A stretch of 35,183 nucleotides of DNA from Phycicoccus sonneratiae. Lineage in GTDB: Bacteria > Actinomycetota > Actinomycetes > Actinomycetales > Dermatophilaceae. Shown piece after piece: positions 3,757 to 26,052 of the stretch (the stretch's first letter is position 1; each line of letters starts with the position of its first letter). The DNA lies in contig NZ_JAFDVD010000019.1 of assembly GCF_016887965.1 (NCBI RefSeq), positions 1 through 35,183 on the forward strand, given 5' to 3'. The notes under the pieces are model-generated. The model was not told the DNA's origin and ran no database searches. It saw only the letters and a list, made by a program, of their open reading frames with translations. Made by a program: the position numbers and the translations under genes.

Positions 3757-4776
3757 GTGTTCCTCGTGACCCCGCCCGACCTCGCCCTCGTCCCGGTGTC
3801 AGGACTCGACACCGACCCCACCGCCCGTGCCCGCTTCGACACCTGGGCCCGCCTGCTCGAGGAGGTGGCCCGCGACGAGCAGGGCGAGGACCACGACGCC
3901 TGGAGCGCCGAGGAGCTGCGCGGGCTCGAGGGGTCCGCGTCCAAGCGCCGCCGCCAGGTGCTCGCGGTCGACGGCGACGAGCCCGTCGGAGCGGGCGGCA
4001 TCATCGCCCCGCTGCTCGACAACGAGGCCACCGCGCAGGTGTTCGTCGCGGTCCTGCCGGCGCACCGACGGCGCGGCGTCGGGGACGAGCTGCTGCGCTG
4101 GGTCGAGGGCGAGGCGCGCGGGCTGGGTCGCGCGACGCTGCACGCCGAGACGCAGTGGGGTGCCGACACCGACGAGGACCCGTTCGCCGGGTGGGTCGAG
4201 CGGCACGGCTTCGAGGCCGCGCAGACCGTCCTGCGCTCCGACCTCGTGATGGGTGAGAGGACGGTGTCCGTGCCGGTCGTGGCCGACGGCTACCGCCTGG
4301 AGACCCACGTCGACGTGATGCCCGAGGCCGACCTCGCCGACCGCGCGTTCCTCGCCCGCCGGATGTCGACCGACGTCCCGCTCGGGGACCTCGAGCTCGC
4401 CGAGGAGGAGTGGGACGAGGGGCGCGTCCGGGGCGAGGACGAGCGGACGCGGGCGATGGGGCGCCGGGTCGTGTCGACCTTCGTGCGCGACCTCGGCACC
4501 GGTCGGCTCGTCGGCTACACGAGCATCCAGTGCCCCGTGGGTACGCCGCACCTCGCCTTCCAGCACGACACCCTCGTCATCCGTGAGCACCGCGGCCACG
4601 GGCTCGGGCTCGCGCTCAAGCTCGCCAACCTGCAGGCGCTCGCCCGGGCGCTGCCCGAGGTGTCGGTCGTCCGCACCTGGAACGCCGAGGAGAACGCGCA
4701 CATGCTGGCCGTCAACCGCCTCCTGGGCTTCCGGCCGAGCGGCCGGCTGCGGGCCTGGCAGAAGCGACTGGCCTGA
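3757..4776 (+). CDS. Tandem-GNAT acetyltransferase family protein
   Basis: A protein of about 339 residues with two GNAT-like halves. The first carries [20 protein letters not shown], an acetyl-CoA-binding signature (R/Q-x-x-G-x-G/A type). The second carries [20 protein letters not shown] and the end motif [11 protein letters not shown]. The overall plan resembles mycothiol synthase and other two-domain actinobacterial GNAT proteins, but specific MshD residues cannot be confirmed, so the substrate is left open. The start is uncertain. GTG 3757 has GGCAGGGG 8 nt upstream and begins just before the conserved region. ATG 3727 is in frame but overlaps the msrA start codon on the other strand. Confidence 0.8.
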
Positions 4777-6116: not shown

Positions 6117-7109
6117 ATGACCCGCACCGAGCCCACCCGCCCCACCCACCCGACCTACGAGGGGCGTAGCCTGCCCCGGCCCGGGGAGGAGGTCGTCGAC
6201 CAGGGCCTCGCCTTCGACCTCGGCACCCTCTTCGACCGACGCCGCGCGCTCCAGGTGCTCGGCCTCGGCGTCGCCGGCGGGGCGCTCGCCGCGTGCGGCA
6301 CCGGGTCGTCCGGCAGCGGGTCGAGCGCGACGGCCTCCTCGAGCGCCTCGAGCACGGCGAGCGCGTCGGCGAGCGCCACCGCGTCCGGCACCCTCACCGA
6401 GATCCCGGACGAGACGGCCGGCCCGTACCCGGGCGACGGCTCGAACGGCGCCGACGTCCTCGAGCAGAGCGGGGTCGTGCGCGATGACATCCGCAGCAGC
6501 TTCGGCAGCTCGACGACGACGGCCGAGGGCGTGCCGATGACCCTGACGCTCACGGTGCTCGACATCGCCGGTGGCGGGGGCCCGATGGTCGGGGCGGCGG
6601 TCTACGTCTGGCACTGCGACCGCGACGGCAACTACTCGATGTACTCCGACGCGGTGAAGGACGAGAACTACCTGCGCGGCGTCCAGGTGACCGACGACGC
6701 CGGCGCTGTGACCTTCACGAGCATCTTCCCGGCGTGCTACTCGGGCCGCTGGCCGCACATCCACTTCGAGGTCTACCCGGACGAGGCGAGCATCACCGAC
6801 TCGACCAACGCCATCGCCACGTCGCAGGTGGCGCTGCCCAAGGCCACCTGCGACGTCGTCTACGCGACGAGCGGGTACGAGCAGTCGGTGTCGAACCTGT
6901 CGCAGCTGTCGCTGACGACGGACAACGTCTTCGGCGACGACGGCGGGGTGCACCAGCTCGGGACCGTGTCGGGCAGCGTGTCGGCGGGGTACGCCGTGGC
7001 CCTCACGGCGCCCGTGGACACGACGACCGCGCCCACGGGTGGGTCGATGGGTGGCGCGGGTGGCCCGGGTGGCGCGGGCGGGACGCCGCCGTCCGCCCCC
7101 GCGAGCTGA
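6117..7109 (+). CDS. Tat-exported lipoprotein, intradiol ring-cleavage dioxygenase family
   Basis: A 330-residue protein. A 40-residue polar N-region precedes a twin-arginine motif (RRRALQVLG, about 41-49), a hydrophobic core and a lipobox LAAC with the modified cysteine at 60, so it should be anchored outside the membrane. A Ser/Ala/Thr/Gly linker (61-92) leads to the catalytic domain. The four non-heme Fe(III) ligands can be placed: Tyr173 in DGNYSMY, Tyr208 in PACYSGRW, and His214 and His216 in PHIHF. These fit the protocatechuate 3,4-dioxygenase fold, which cleaves catechols between the hydroxyls. The C-terminal tail is Gly/Pro-rich. No aromatic-degradation pathway genes lie nearby, so the substrate is unknown. 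GGAGGT sits 6 nt before the ATG. Confidence 0.88.
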   Translation: MTRTEPTRPTHPTYEGRSLPRPGEEVVDQGLAFDLGTLFDRRRALQVLGLGVAGGALAACGTGSSGSGSSATASSSASSTASASASATASGTLTEIPDETAGPYPGDGSNGADVLEQSGVVRDDIRSSFGSSTTTAEGVPMTLTLTVLDIAGGGGPMVGAAVYVWHCDRDGNYSMYSDAVKDENYLRGVQVTDDAGAVTFTSIFPACYSGRWPHIHFEVYPDEASITDSTNAIATSQVALPKATCDVVYATSGYEQSVSNLSQLSLTTDNVFGDDGGVHQLGTVSGSVSAGYAVALTAPVDTTTAPTGGSMGGAGGPGGAGGTPPSAPAS

Positions 7110-7115
7110 CGGCGG
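7086..7115 (+). terminator. Possible terminator overlapping the dioxygenase stop codon
   Basis: CCGCCGTC (7086-7093) pairs with GACGGCGG (7108-7115) across a 14-nt loop; an alternative GCCCC/GGGGC pairing overlaps it. It spans the stop codon. This is weak evidence. Confidence 0.35.
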
Positions 7116-7185
7116 GGCTCGGTTCGTCGCCGGGTGCGCATCCTGGACCCACGGCAGGCCCGGCCGTCGCCCGGGCGGTGAGGAG

Positions 7186-7310
7186 GCACCTGTGTCGTCG
7201 CGGACTCCTTGCTCCCCGCAAGGGATCGCTTGCCAGGCGCACGGGATCGCTTGCTCGTCGCACGGGATCGCTTGTTAGGTGCAAGGGATCGCTTGCGACC
7301 GGCAAGGAGT
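7186..7310 (+). repeat. Palindromic 21-bp-period repeat array A
   Basis: Four 16-bp near-palindromes (7218, 7239, 7260, 7281) of consensus GCAAGGGATCGCTTGC repeat with an exact 21-bp step, separated by variable 5-nt spacers. Degenerate units flank them: ACTCCTTGC at 7204-7212 and GCAAGGAGT at 7302-7310, a perfect 9-bp inverted pair. The whole array is symmetric about 7257. A boundary box GCACCTGTGT (7186-7195) lies 29 nt before the first GATC. The element occupies the 300-bp gap between the dioxygenase and the GlmL-like gene. A homologous element lies at 23439-23615 in the opposite orientation. Function unknown. Confidence 0.9.
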
Positions 7311-7395
7311 GCTGGAGCCCATACCAGCCTCTCCGCCGGCCCCCTCGCCTCAGCGGGTCGGCACCCGCCGGCGCCGGCCGGCCCGCACCGACCAC

Positions 7396-21547: not shown

Positions 21548-21913
21548 GTGATCGTCGGCGTCGGGATCGACGTCGTCGACGTCGCGCGCTTCGGGGCCGC
21601 TCTCCAGCGCACGCCGCGGCTCGGGGAGCGGCTGTTCACTCCGGCCGAGCGGGTGCTGCCGCTCAACTCGCGGGCGGCCCGGTTCGCGGCCAAGGAGGCG
21701 CTGGCCAAGGCGCTCGGCGCCCCGGTCGGGCTGCACTGGCACGACGCCGAGGTGACGCGGGGGCCCGACCGCCGGCCGGCCTTCACGCTCCGGGGCACTG
21801 TCGCGGCGGCCGTCGCCGAGCTCGGCATCACCGACATCCACGTCTCGCTCTCGCACGACGCCGGCATCGCGTCCGCGGTGGTCGTGGCCGAGCGGCAGGA
21901 GGGTCCACGGTGA
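21548..21913 (+). CDS. acpS: Holo-[acyl-carrier-protein] synthase
   Basis: A 121-residue enzyme that moves 4'-phosphopantetheine from coenzyme A to acyl carrier protein. The metal-binding residues are visible: Asp8 in [13 protein letters not shown] and Glu50 in [13 protein letters not shown], with the SLSHD motif near the end. GTG at 21548 is chosen because [10 protein letters not shown] is the normal N-terminus. It lies 13 bp after glmS and overlaps nnr by GTGA at 21910, so all three are one operon. Confidence 0.95.
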
Positions 21914-23364
21914 TCGAGGGGTTCGGGACGGACGCGGTGTACGCCGCGGAGAAGGCCCTCATGGCCCGCCTCGAGGACGGCGAGCTGATGGCGCGGGCGG
22001 TCGAGGGGCTGGCCGCGGTGGCCGACGCGCGGCTGACCGAGCGCGGCGGGAGCTCGGTGGTGGCGCTCGTCGGACCCGGCAACAACGGGGCCGACGCGCT
22101 GTACGCCGCGGCGCGGCTGGCCGAGGCGGGATGGAGCGCCGCGGCGGTGCACCACGAGGACGTGCACGCCGGGGCGCGGGAGGCGGCCGAGGCCGCCGGG
22201 GTGGTGCTCGGTCGTGACGCCTCGGTGGTGGCCGAGGCCGACCTCGTGCTGGACGGCGTGCTCGGCATCGGCGCGCGGCCGGGCCTGCCGGACTGGGCGG
22301 CGGCGTGGGTGGCGGCCGTGCCGGAGACGGCGTACGTGCTGGCCGTCGACCTGCCGTCGGGGCAGGACCCCGCGGGGGCGGTGTTCGACGGCCGGGGGGT
22401 CATCGCGGACGAGACCGTCACCTTCTCGGTGGCCAAGCCGGTGCACCTCCTGCCCCCGACCGAGCAGGCGTGCGGCGCGCTGACCGTCGTCGACATCGGG
22501 ATCGAGGTCGACGCGACGCCGGTGGTGCGCCGGCTGGACCACGACGACGTCGCCGCGCTGTGGCCGGTGCCGGGGCCGGGAGACGACAAGTACTCGCGCG
22601 GGGTGCTGGGGGTCGTGGCCGGCGGTGAGTCGTACACCGGGGCGGCCGTGCTGTGCGTGACCTCGGCCGTCGAGGCCGGGGCGGGGATGGTGCGCTACGT
22701 GGGGACGCCGACGCCCGCCGGGCTGGTGCGGGCGGCGGTGCCGGAGGCGACGCACGGGGTCGGGCGGGTGCAGGCCTGGGTCGTCGGGCCGGGGCTCGAC
22801 ACGCTGTCGCGGGCGGCGGGGTCGCGGGCGCAGCTCGACGTGGCGCGGGACGCGCTCGCCGGTGAGGAGCCGGTGGTCGTCGACGCCGGGGGGCTCGACC
22901 TCCTGACGGCCGGGGTGCTGCGTGGTCGTCGCGACCGGGTGACGCTGCTGACGCCGCACGCAGGGGAGTGCGCGCGGCTGCTCGGCCGGCTCGGGGAGGA
23001 GGAGGTCTCGCGCGGGGAGGTCGAGGGGGCGCCGCTGGCGTCGGCGCGCCGGCTGGCCGGGCTGACCGGGGCGACGGTGCTGCTCAAGGGGTCGACGACG
23101 CTCGTCGTGCCGCCGGGGGAGGGCTCTCCGGTCTGGTCCCAGGCCGACGCGCCGCCGTGGCTGGCGACGGCGGGGGCCGGTGACGTGCTCGCCGGGCTGG
23201 TGGGGACGCTGCTCGCGGCCGGGTTGCCGGCGGACGAGGCGGGTGCCCTGGGGGCGCTGGTGCACGGGGTGGCGGCCGAGCGGGCCTCCGGTGGGGGCCC
23301 GGTGCGGGCGCTGTCGGTGGCCCGGGCCCTGCCGGGTGCGGTGGCGGGGCTGCTGCGGCGCTGA
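21910..23364 (+). CDS. nnr: Bifunctional NAD(P)HX epimerase/dehydratase
   Basis: A 484-residue protein that repairs hydrated NADH and NADPH. The N-terminal YjeF-type epimerase half (about 1-215) has [15 protein letters not shown]; the usual motif is NGGDG/NGGDAL, so one glycine is alanine here. DGVLGIG and AVDLPSGQD follow. The C-terminal ADP-dependent dehydratase half (about 220-484) has [42 protein letters not shown] and [14 protein letters not shown]. Both halves look intact. GTG 21910 overlaps the acpS stop. Third positions here are unusually G-rich (GGG, GTG, CGG) compared with the C-rich alr gene after it. Confidence 0.94.
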
Positions 23365-23438
23365 GGGGTCCGACCTCGGACGTGAGGGGCGCAGCCGACC
23401 GGAGCGCGACGCTTCCTGAGAGCCCGCCACCACCCATG

Positions 23439-23615
23439 GTGCTCCCGAGATCCGTGCTGGACGCAAGGGATCCCTTGCCGCGCGCCAGCGATCCCTTGCC
23501 GGGCGCAAGCGATCCCTTGCCGGGCGCAAGCGATCCCTTGCCGGGCGCAAGCGATCCCTTGCGGGGCGCAAGCGATCCCTTGCCGGGAGCACGGATCTCC
23601 GGAACACACAGGTGC
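23439..23615 (-). repeat. Palindromic 21-bp-period repeat array B
   Basis: Six 16-bp near-palindromes at 23463, 23484, 23505, 23526, 23547 and 23568, consensus GCAAGCGATCCCTTGC, with an exact 21-bp step and mostly CGGGC spacers. The first unit is a perfect palindrome. Outer arms 23439-23458 and 23588-23607 form an imperfect inverted repeat (share GAGATCCGTGCT). All parts are symmetric about 23523. ACACAGGTGC (23606-23615) is the reverse complement of the boundary box of array A and lies at the same 29-nt distance from the nearest inner GATC. Read on the minus strand it is homologous to array A. It fills most of the 364-bp gap between nnr and alr. Function unknown. Confidence 0.92.
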
Positions 23616-23712
23616 GTCCTCGGGTCGGACGGGACGGCTCGGGCGGGGGAGACGCCCCGGCGCCCGCCACCCCGCTCACGACCTCGGCGGATCCGGGCAC
23701 AGGCCGCCGTCC

Positions 23713-23718
23713 TAGACT
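23713..23718 (+). promoter_or_regulatory. Putative -10 (TAGACT) of alr
   Basis: TAGACT ends 10 nt before the ATG at 23729, giving a leader of at most a few nucleotides. It lies about 100 bp beyond the end of repeat array B. Confidence 0.5.
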
Positions 23719-23728
23719 GGACAGGCTC

Positions 23729-24910
23729 ATGACCGCCCCCACGACCCCGTCCGCACCCGCGAGCACGCCCGCGGGTGCTTCCGCGTGGGTCACCGTCGAC
23801 GCCGCCGCCATCCGCGACAACGTCGCCGAGCTCGTCCGCCGCGCAGCTCCCGCGCACGTCCTCGCCGTCGTCAAGGCCGACGCCTACGGCCACGGCCTCG
23901 TCACCGCCGCCCGCGCCGCGCTCGTCGGCGGCGCCACCTGGCTCGGCGTCGCCCAGCTCGACGAGGCGCTCGCCCTCCGCACGGCCGGCGTCACCGCACC
24001 CCTCCTCACCTGGATCTACCCTCCGCACGCCGACATCGCAGGCGCCGCCGACGCCGGCATCGACGTCACCGTCGGCAGCGCCTGGAACCTCGAGGCCGTC
24101 GTCGCCGTCGCGCGCGAGCGCGGCCGCCCCGTCCGCGTCCAGGCCAAGGTCGACACCGGCCTCGGCCGCGGCGGCGTCCTCACCGACTGGAGCGAGTTCA
24201 CCGCCGCCCTGGCCCGGGCGGTCGCCGAGGGCGCCGTCGAGCTCACCGGCACCTGGTCGCACTTCGCCTGGGCCGACGCCCCGCAGCACCCCACCGTCCG
24301 CGCCCAGCAGGACCGGTTCGTCGAGGCCGTCGCCGAGCTGGAGCGGGCCGGCCTCGACCCCGGCCTGCGCCACCTCGCCAACTCCGCCGCCACGCTCACC
24401 AACCCGGACGCGCACTTCGACCTCGTCCGCCCGGGACTGGCCGTCTACGGCCTCTCCCCGGTCCCCGACCTCGGCAGCCCGCAGGACTTCGGCCTCCGCG
24501 AGGCGATGCGCGTCACCGCCCGGCTCACCCAGGTCAAGCAGGCCCGCGCCGGCCAGGGCGTCAGCTACGGCCACGAGTACACGACCGACCGCGACACCGT
24601 CCTCGGCCTCGTGCCGATGGGCTACGCCGACGGCATCCCCCGTCACGCGGGCAACGCCGGCCCCGTGCAGGTCCGCGGCCGCCGCCACACCGTCGCCGGG
24701 CGCGTCTGCATGGACCAGTTCATGATCGACCTCGGCCCGGGCACCGACGCCGCCCCCGGCGACGAGGTCACCGTCCTCGGCCGCGGCGCCGACGGCGAGC
24801 CCACCGCCCAGGACTGGGCCGAGGCCGCCGGCACGATCAACTACGAGGTCGTCACCCGGATGGCGCCGCGCCTGCCCCGCGTCGTCGTCGGCGCGCAGGA
24901 CGACGCCTGA
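23729..24910 (+). CDS. alr: Alanine racemase
   Basis: A 393-residue PLP enzyme that makes D-alanine for peptidoglycan. The cofactor lysine is Lys49 in VLAVVKADAYGHG and the opposite catalytic tyrosine is at about 280 in QGVSYGHEY. Conserved KVDTGLGRGG, HLANSAAT, PMGYADGIPR, GRVCMDQFM and TINYEVVTRM follow in family order. A disordered Ala/Thr/Pro N-terminus of about 18 residues precedes the barrel. The ATG at 23729 is the only sensible start. It heads the alr-hydrolase-tsaE-tsaB-rimI-tsaD operon, the same order (with the hydrolase added) as in Mycobacterium. Confidence 0.96.
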   Translation: MTAPTTPSAPASTPAGASAWVTVDAAAIRDNVAELVRRAAPAHVLAVVKADAYGHGLVTAARAALVGGATWLGVAQLDEALALRTAGVTAPLLTWIYPPHADIAGAADAGIDVTVGSAWNLEAVVAVARERGRPVRVQAKVDTGLGRGGVLTDWSEFTAALARAVAEGAVELTGTWSHFAWADAPQHPTVRAQQDRFVEAVAELERAGLDPGLRHLANSAATLTNPDAHFDLVRPGLAVYGLSPVPDLGSPQDFGLREAMRVTARLTQVKQARAGQGVSYGHEYTTDRDTVLGLVPMGYADGIPRHAGNAGPVQVRGRRHTVAGRVCMDQFMIDLGPGTDAAPGDEVTVLGRGADGEPTAQDWAEAAGTINYEVVTRMAPRLPRVVVGAQDDA

Positions 24911-26052
24911 TGGCCCGCGGTCCGGTCGCCGGCGCACTCGGCGCCGTGGGGTCGCGCGTCCTCCGTGGTCGGCCCGCGCGCCTCGGGGGCGACGAGGCCG
25001 GTCTGGCCTGGTCGCACACCCCCACCGAGGCCCTGCTCGTCGCCACCGACGACGGGGTCGACCTCCACGTCGAGATCGACGCCCCGAAGGCGGCCAGCCG
25101 CGGGCGCCGCCACCTCGCGGGCCGGACCCCCACCGTCGTCTTCGTCCACGGCTTCGCCCTGACGATGCAGTCGTGGGTCCTCCAGCGCCGGGCGATGGTC
25201 GAGCAGGGCATGCGCGTCGTCGCCTACGACCAGCGCGGTCACGGCCGCTCGTCGCTGCCCGACCTCGACACCTGCACCGTCGACCGGCTCGGCCGCGACC
25301 TCGCCCGCGTCATCGAGGCCACCTGCCCGACGGGGCCGGTCGTGCTCGTCGGTCACTCGATGGGTGGCATGAGCGTCATGTCCTTCGCCGGCGCCCACCC
25401 CGACGTCGTCCGCGACCGCGTGCTCGCCGTGGCGCTCGTGTCCACCTCGCCGGGCGGCCACGAGGTCACCGAGTTCGGGCTCGGGCCGCTCGCGGGGCGG
25501 GTCGTCGGGGCGATGGGGCCGGGCGTGCTCACCCGCCTGTCCCGGCACGCCGGCCCGATCGGGGTCCTGCGCCGGATGGGCAAGGGCGTGCAGGACCTCG
25601 CCGTCGCCCGCTGGGCCTTCGACTCGCCGGTCAGCGCCGGTCTCGTCGACCTCGTCGCCGAGATGATCTTCGCGACCCCGTTCGACGTCATGGCCGCCTT
25701 CCTCCCGGACATCGACGCCCTCGACCTCGTCCCGCGGCTGGGCGCCCTCACCGGCGTCGAGACCCTCGTGATGAACGGGGCCGGCGACCTCATCACGCCG
25801 CCGTCGCACTCGGTCGAGATCGTCCGGCACGTCCCCGGCGCCGAGCACGTCGTCGTCGAGGACGCCGGCCACATCCTCATGCTCGAGCACCCCGACCTCG
25901 TCACCGAGCAGCTGGTCGGCCTCGTCCAGCGGGCGCAGCGCGCCGTCGCCGAGGGGGTCCCCGTCAGCAGCAAGCCGCGCGTGCGGCGCACGGTGCAGGA
26001 CATCTCGAAGAAGCGGCGGGCCGCCCGGTCGCGTCGGGAGGCGGCGTCGTGA
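24910..26052 (+). CDS. Alpha/beta hydrolase
   Basis: A 380-residue hydrolase. After a basic, partly hydrophobic N-terminus of about 60 residues comes the fold: VVFVHGFALTMQSW (oxyanion region), VVAYDQRGHGRSS, the nucleophile elbow GHSMGG, an acid in NGAGDLITP and the final histidine in DAGHILMLEHP, so a full Ser-Asp-His triad can be placed. The last 40 residues are basic. The substrate is unknown; lipase or esterase activity is possible. Its ATG shares one base with the alr stop (TGATG) and its stop overlaps tsaE, so it is embedded in the operon. Confidence 0.9.
   Translation: MARGPVAGALGAVGSRVLRGRPARLGGDEAGLAWSHTPTEALLVATDDGVDLHVEIDAPKAASRGRRHLAGRTPTVVFVHGFALTMQSWVLQRRAMVEQGMRVVAYDQRGHGRSSLPDLDTCTVDRLGRDLARVIEATCPTGPVVLVGHSMGGMSVMSFAGAHPDVVRDRVLAVALVSTSPGGHEVTEFGLGPLAGRVVGAMGPGVLTRLSRHAGPIGVLRRMGKGVQDLAVARWAFDSPVSAGLVDLVAEMIFATPFDVMAAFLPDIDALDLVPRLGALTGVETLVMNGAGDLITPPSHSVEIVRHVPGAEHVVVEDAGHILMLEHPDLVTEQLVGLVQRAQRAVAEGVPVSSKPRVRRTVQDISKKRRAARSRREAAS

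Follow-up and report, generated by a model that had tools for sequence, protein, structure and literature searches.

Intergenic arrays of a 16-bp palindrome at 21-bp steps in Phycicoccus sonneratiae, with different words at orthologous loci in related species

Dispersed repeats in bacterial genomes are often treated as mobile debris or as terminators. REP, BIME and REPIN elements are palindromic extragenic repeats with lineage-specific words, and REP and REPIN units number in the hundreds. The sites of the nucleoid proteins ParB (parS), Noc and MatP (matS) are short dyad words that are read by a dimer and scattered over the chromosome; as a rule each of them stands singly and is well conserved. 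BOX elements of Streptococcus pneumoniae, as outlined in PMC3049150, are interspersed repeats with two end modules, boxA and boxC, and a variable number of tandem boxB modules between them, and they are predicted to fold when transcribed. Measured against that outline, the elements described here resemble BOX in being modular intergenic palindromes with variable internal copies.

The window analysed is a 35,183-bp stretch of the Phycicoccus sonneratiae genome. A sequence-only reading of it had proposed an array, array B, of six palindromic units at 21-bp steps in a quasi-palindrome centred on position 23523, and both the array and its symmetry were borne out. Six 16-bp units of the word GCAAGSGATCSCTTGC follow one another at exact 21-bp steps within 23439-23607 (Table 1), with 0, 1, 0, 0, 0 and 0 mismatches in units 1 to 6. 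With up to three mismatches the word has 10 matches in the window, six in array B and four near 7.2 kb, compared with a mean of 0.52 and a maximum of 3 in dinucleotide shuffles of the window (n = 100). TRF reports a tandem repeat at 23455-23591 (period 21, 6.5 copies, 91% matches), and an inverted-repeat search gives arms of 82 nt at 23439-23520 and 23526-23607 that are 76% complementary and separated by 5 nt. The outer GATC boxes, starting at 23449 and 23594, lie 20 bp beyond the inner boxes on each side, as claimed. The inner TGC of the left arm equals the outer bases of the units. The claim that four units share one spacer is better put as three identical CGGGC spacers linking units 2-5. 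The name array B also implied a second array in the window, and array A is present.

Table 1. Coordinates of the arrays and neighbouring features in the window
Feature	Position	Strand	Remark
Array A	7197..7317	.	arms 7197-7212 and 7302-7317; four units starting at 7218, 7239, 7260 and 7281
nnr	21910..23364	+	upstream neighbour of array B; ORF and codon-usage model; putative name, from the sequence-only reading
Outer block CCTGAGAGC	23415..23423	+	near array B; possible element end, weak
Array B, left arm	23442..23457	+	CTCCCGAGATCCGTGC
Array B, unit 1	23463..23478	.	GCAAGGGATCCCTTGC; perfect palindrome
Array B, unit 2	23484..23499	.	GCCAGCGATCCCTTGC
Array B, unit 3	23505..23520	.	GCAAGCGATCCCTTGC
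Array B, unit 4	23526..23541	.	GCAAGCGATCCCTTGC
Array B, unit 5	23547..23562	.	GCAAGCGATCCCTTGC
Array B, unit 6	23568..23583	.	GCAAGCGATCCCTTGC
Array B, right arm	23589..23604	-	GCACGGATCTCCGGAA; inverted copy of the left arm
TAGACT block	23713-23718		beside alr; seen in relatives
alr	23729..24910	+	downstream neighbour of array B; ORF, codon-usage model and protein relatives; putative name, from the sequence-only reading

Two side observations concern the window itself. Because 21 is a multiple of 3, several frames stay open through the arrays (7003-7395 on the minus strand, 23382-23732 on the plus strand, 23084-24937 on the minus strand), and the resulting heptapeptide-repeat ORFs, for example KGSLAPGKGSLAP, may get annotated as proteins by mistake. 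The contig end, 35110-35183, is an almost pure run of C (74 bases) and is probably an assembly or sequencing artefact.

The word recurs across the genome under study (G000; 4.11 Mb, 33 contigs). With up to two mismatches it is found at 46 places, compared with 2 for a backward control; 45 of these fall in 11 arrays, two inside the window and nine outside, and one is isolated (L024). Each array has 3 to 7 internal units, and arm-like 16-mers stand at 21 of the 22 array ends by a loose score and at 17 by a stricter one. On the right the arms have a consensus of about GCAyGGAGttCTGGAGCACC, and those on the left are the inverse of it. The identity, covariation, ortholog and step counts leave out units with a score under 9 of 12 fixed positions, and two rows were dropped, the isolated match L024 and L234, which is the same locus as L152.

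All 11 arrays are intergenic, five between codirectional genes, four between convergent genes and two in divergent gaps (L020 and L023). Gene orientation comes from a codon-usage gene model, corrected at L020, which is divergent and not codirectional because tblastn with the G008 ortholog shows a plus-strand gene at 4234-4776. At L023 the right-hand gene encodes a DUF3516/DEAD helicase according to Pfam, and the left-hand gene is read as SnoaL-like from its translation. Given these mixed orientations, the arrays do not have alr control or termination as their general function. Regulation of alr had been one of the roles suggested for array B. The eleven arrays adjoin unrelated genes, and alr-specific regulation is unsupported because a promoter-like TAGACTGG/TAGAATGG block beside the alr start stays where array B is absent: G004, G006, G009, G010 and G011 all have the block, and their nnr-alr gaps are without this array. 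The closest named Alr relative is that of Phycicoccus sp. HDW14 (92%), which is taken to be G010.

The units and the spacers between them behave differently. In G000 the identity of the 16-mer is 0.86 within arrays and 0.82 between arrays, and that of the 5-nt spacer is 0.69 within and 0.33 between. Spacers that are alike within arrays and unlike between them record local duplication and support the suggestion that the array grew by tandem duplication. G003 and G008 repeat the pattern more weakly, with 16-mer/spacer identities of 0.75/0.45 within and 0.73/0.34 between arrays in G003 and of 0.78/0.48 and 0.73/0.40 in G008. In G000 the site word is common to the loci independently of the spacer and helical phase is constant; phase is looser in G003 and G008. 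Accepted units follow one another at 21 bp in 40 of 40 cases in G000, 13 of 13 in G002 and 23 of 25 in G010 (the other two are 42 bp), and less regularly so in G003 (31/45) and G008 (24/39), all under a chaining procedure that favoured 21-bp steps.

The arms follow the units in part. Their inner bases are TGC in 21 of the 22 arms found in G000 and G002 and GTC in 7 of the 8 found in G010; the rule is loose in G003 (TGC in 8/14 arms found) and fails in G008, where 8 of 15 arms have CGC and the units have CCC. No arm was obtained at 6 of 28 array ends in G000 and G002 and at 4 of 12 in G010. Left and right arms were also paired in 14 elements from G000 and G002: partners from one locus gave 162/224 matches, compared with 154.3 for shuffled partners, a score that 1415 of 20000 shuffles reached. 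The arms therefore agree mostly through a shared family word.

GATC was rejected as the key feature of the units, since those of G003 and G008 often have TTTC/GAAA centres; unit centres in G010 are mostly GATC or TATC/GATA. Among high-scoring units of G000 and G002 with an intact GATC, the centre is GGATCG in 18, CGATCC in 11, GGATCC in 10, CGATCG in 1 and AGATCC in 1. The bases flanking GATC are mostly non-complementary in these units, so the units have polarity. Among unit centres with a lean, pyrimidine-rich and purine-rich ones number 32 and 18 to the left of the array centre and 19 and 48 to the right (Fisher p 0.00016, with units that are not independent), an element-level dyad; this count omits 39 units in which purines and pyrimidines balance, together with the 16 units that stand in the middle of odd-numbered arrays. 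The lean is clearest in G003, and the left side in G000 and G002 is 9/9.

Arrays of this architecture were seen in four relatives among 12 genomes of the genus, G002, G003, G008 and G010; the remaining seven were examined only at selected neighbour-gene gaps and with the G008 and G010 words. In G003, G008 and G010 the 16-mer differs from that of G000. The nnr-alr gap word is GSAAGGnnnnCCTTSC in G003 and GGGAGGnnnnCCTCCC in G008, and the PNPOx-gap word of G010 is about GWCMGGkATCCCKGWC; between genomes the outer three half-site bases vary most. Of 58 relatives searched, four contain the GCAAG word with its second half-site: G000, G002 and G003, and a distant genome that has it at one place. A looser half-site pattern matched 6 of 186 genomes family-wide, three of them at a single place in other genera, and its backward control gave one match each in 5 other genomes.

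The G008 and G010 words mark their own genomes. In G008, its word matches 30 times on the forward and 39 times on the reverse strand (controls 2 and 3); each of the remaining 11 genomes of the genus has 0 to 7 matches per strand (controls 0 to 5). Allowing one mismatch, the G010 word matches at 29 places in G010, compared with 0 and 2 for its controls, and at 0 to 12 scattered places in other genomes; among the 12 genomes, its exact matches are all in G010 (13/13). A word taken from a single locus thus led to more arrays in its own genome: 10 of 16 loci in G008 and 6 of 6 in G010 gave a chain of units. The 10 chained G008 loci were used; L215, L220, L222, L226, L227 and L229 gave no unit chain. 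As evidence for a change of word, these genome-specific match counts are better than the ortholog comparisons.

The ortholog comparisons concern arrays placed by their flanks, which are 74-95% identical between orthologous loci. The nnr-alr arrays are at the same place in G000, G003 and G008. L020 is orthologous with arrays in G008 and G010, L018, L019 and L022 with arrays in G010 (L022 on one flank only) and L023 with a locus in G002, whose L150 is in turn orthologous with G008. G003 and G008 have eight orthologous loci, of which five were compared and three pairs (L152-L227, L154-L229 and L231-L222) stand outside the unit comparison. Over 15 orthologous locus pairs, 230 of 238 comparisons put the other loci of a genome closer than the ortholog. 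The figure is 226 of 226 for pairs with different words, a count that is non-independent and partly circular, and 4 of 12 for G000-G002, the one pair that shares a word. These comparisons share loci and use units cut out with genome-specific words, and within-genome likeness is inflated because arrays and units were mostly found by word. For arrays first met through neighbour genes the counts are 8/8 (L158, G003), 9/9 (L156, G008) and 5/5 (L271, G010); their units were also cut with the genome's word, and the G008 and G010 words were read from L156 and L271. Mean likeness between loci is 0.70 in G010, whose arrays are mixed, compared with 0.80-0.86 in the other four genomes. In close relatives, orthologous gaps hold the same architecture with another word, changed at several loci per genome.

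Some loci lack arrays in relatives. Neighbour genes were used to check four G000 loci in G010: an array stands at one, a different palindrome at another, and two are empty, which means that no single site is essential. The PNPOx locus has no array in G003 or G008. Locus A has an array in G000 and none in G010, G003 or G008, and the TopoIB locus has one in G000, none in G010 or G003, and other repeats in G002, G008, G009 and G011. By eye, the gaps downstream of TopoIB (L249, L252, L254 and L256) hold other tandem repeats, in G002 GGCGTGGCGAGATGAC..., and at L245 in G009 there are CGAACCCCGGACGTGTCGTG repeats on the far side of PNPOx. The L154 gap (G003:C7) has a 58-bp exact repeat next to two segments of array, which may represent another repeat family.

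We consider it an even proposition that the arrays are clusters of duplex-DNA recognition sites for a putative trans-acting DNA-binding protein. The sequence-only reading had listed binding of a multimer among several roles, and this is the one that fits best: the loci have the 16-mer in common but not the spacer, and each step spans two turns of the helix. The protein itself is putative. One dimer would occupy each 16-mer and read it as duplex DNA, neighbouring dimers would touch on the same helix face, and the filament so formed would be capped by the arms. The specificity of the protein may shift, mainly at the outer three half-site bases (GCA, GSA, GGG or GWC), and the arrays would follow through mutation and the local duplication of 21-bp segments. 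The arrays probably act on chromosome organisation or insulation and not on one gene, which we favour because the orientation of the flanking genes is mixed. The same layout with a different word in related species suggests that some protein reads the word. More tentatively, and with the balance of probability against it, the arrays could be a bacterial analogue of satellite-protein coevolution, in which a putative oligomerising DNA-binding protein switched its recognition word several times within the genus and the arrays followed in concert, their positions partly kept.

Such palindromes could also be explained as hairpins in a transcript that serve its termination, stabilisation or processing. 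The whole array B element has a strong predicted RNA fold on the plus strand (-99.1 kcal/mol, z -5.37), and at 9 of the 11 G000 arrays at least one gene ends towards the array; divergent gaps also hold arrays, however, the region 23300-23800 contains no T-run terminator (GC-rich stem plus T-run), and Rfam gives no match in the window at the gathering cut-off. A search for sigma-70 promoters in 23300-23800 likewise found none. The base pairs of the arrays argue further against an RNA role, which we regard as improbable, and they leave cruciform or hairpin pairing, the former another of the roles first proposed, unsupported as the selected property: no covariation appeared in any register tested. 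In G000 with G002, in G003 and in G008, Watson-Crick pairs were no more frequent than the shuffled-partner mean in the intra-unit, across-spacer, mirror-unit and mirror-spacer registers, and the intra-unit and across-spacer registers of G010 likewise gave no covariation. Intra-unit changes in G000 and G002 are one-sided in 91 cases and compensated in 3. A 42-bp hairpin family of the genus, CGTGTGTGAACACGCC(10)GGCGTGTTCACACACG (L144 1350-1420; loci L162-L177), served as a positive control. Like the arrays it is an interspersed palindrome, and it occupies the nnr-alr gap in G009 and G010; unlike them it is a single hairpin whose pairs covary when pooled. Exact-arm copies occur in 7 of the 12 genomes (22 in G008, 12 in G009) and none in G000. 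Pooled over four genomes (38 distinct copies), the count is 261 of 304 pairs, compared with 249.7 for shuffled partners, and 12 of 5000 shuffles score as high; changes are one-sided in 38 cases and compensated in 13. By genome, 136 of 5000 shuffles score as high in G009, which like the pooled set is significant, and 1489 of 5000 in G008, which is not. The control used 45 of 57 copies, and the 12 left out (G004, G005 and G006) are 43-44 bp long.

The main rival to a binding-site array is a BOX-like mobile element. It would be a selfish or passive BOX- or MITE-like palindrome with conserved ends (the arms and perhaps the outer block CCTGAGAGC) and variable tandem modules, spread by a putative transposase, and its lineage subfamilies would replace each other. 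The modular layout fits this, as do presence and absence at orthologous gaps (locus A and TopoIB), the avoidance of genes (0 of 35 array rows in G000, G002, G003 and G008 overlap a modelled gene) and the unequal number of units at a shared locus (L023 has 3, L148 has 6). The longest tract common to two G000 loci, 36 bp in L019 and L025, includes two spacers, and copying between these two loci is therefore possible; however, the remaining common tracts are at most 27 bp. Different words also occupy the same locus across species, which implies either that the word was altered where it stood or that the site was occupied anew. The outer block CCTGAGAGC stands outside only 8 of the 82 array ends examined, no target duplication is readable at two empty sites, and the Y1 (RAYT) transposase, PF01797, was found in none of the 12 genomes of the genus (the control matched in 5 of 14). 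A blastn search of plasmids and phages with array B and an exact-pattern search of viral contigs gave no match. We consider a mobile element of this kind rather unlikely on this evidence. Protein binding and BOX-like mobility may also coexist, as a mobile element could carry the sites. A neutral satellite, built into local arrays by slippage and read by nothing, is in our judgement quite implausible. Homogeneous spacers within arrays do show local duplication, and some loci are without arrays in close relatives, but slippage alone explains neither one 16-mer with different spacers at 11 places nor a change of word at many loci. For the binding-site array, what matters is that the word is conserved, and not the spacer or the pairing, which predicts a species-specific binding protein with swapped specificity.

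A literature search turned up no publication recognised as describing these arrays, and a change of module word at orthologous loci without homogenisation of spacers between loci was not found in print. By layout, the arrays share with BOX, as outlined in PMC3049150, conserved end modules around tandem internal modules that vary in number. Four things set them apart from BOX in that outline: their module is a 16-bp dyad spaced every 21 bp, each arm repeats the other in inverse orientation, related species have different module words at orthologous loci, and the pairs do not covary. The GTAG or CGTC tags of REP are named in the title of PMC3733652; spacer positions in G000 carry 0.3-0.7 bits, and so the arrays have no fixed tag of the type named there. 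Identity with RAYT/REP was rejected, since the genus genomes gave no Y1 transposase. The arrays are like REP, BIME and REPIN elements in being palindromic and extragenic with lineage-specific words, and unlike REP and REPIN elements in having tens of units, with strict 21-bp phasing in G000. With the sites of nucleoid proteins they share short dyad words scattered over the chromosome; unlike those sites, they form phased arrays with species-specific words, read by a putative protein.
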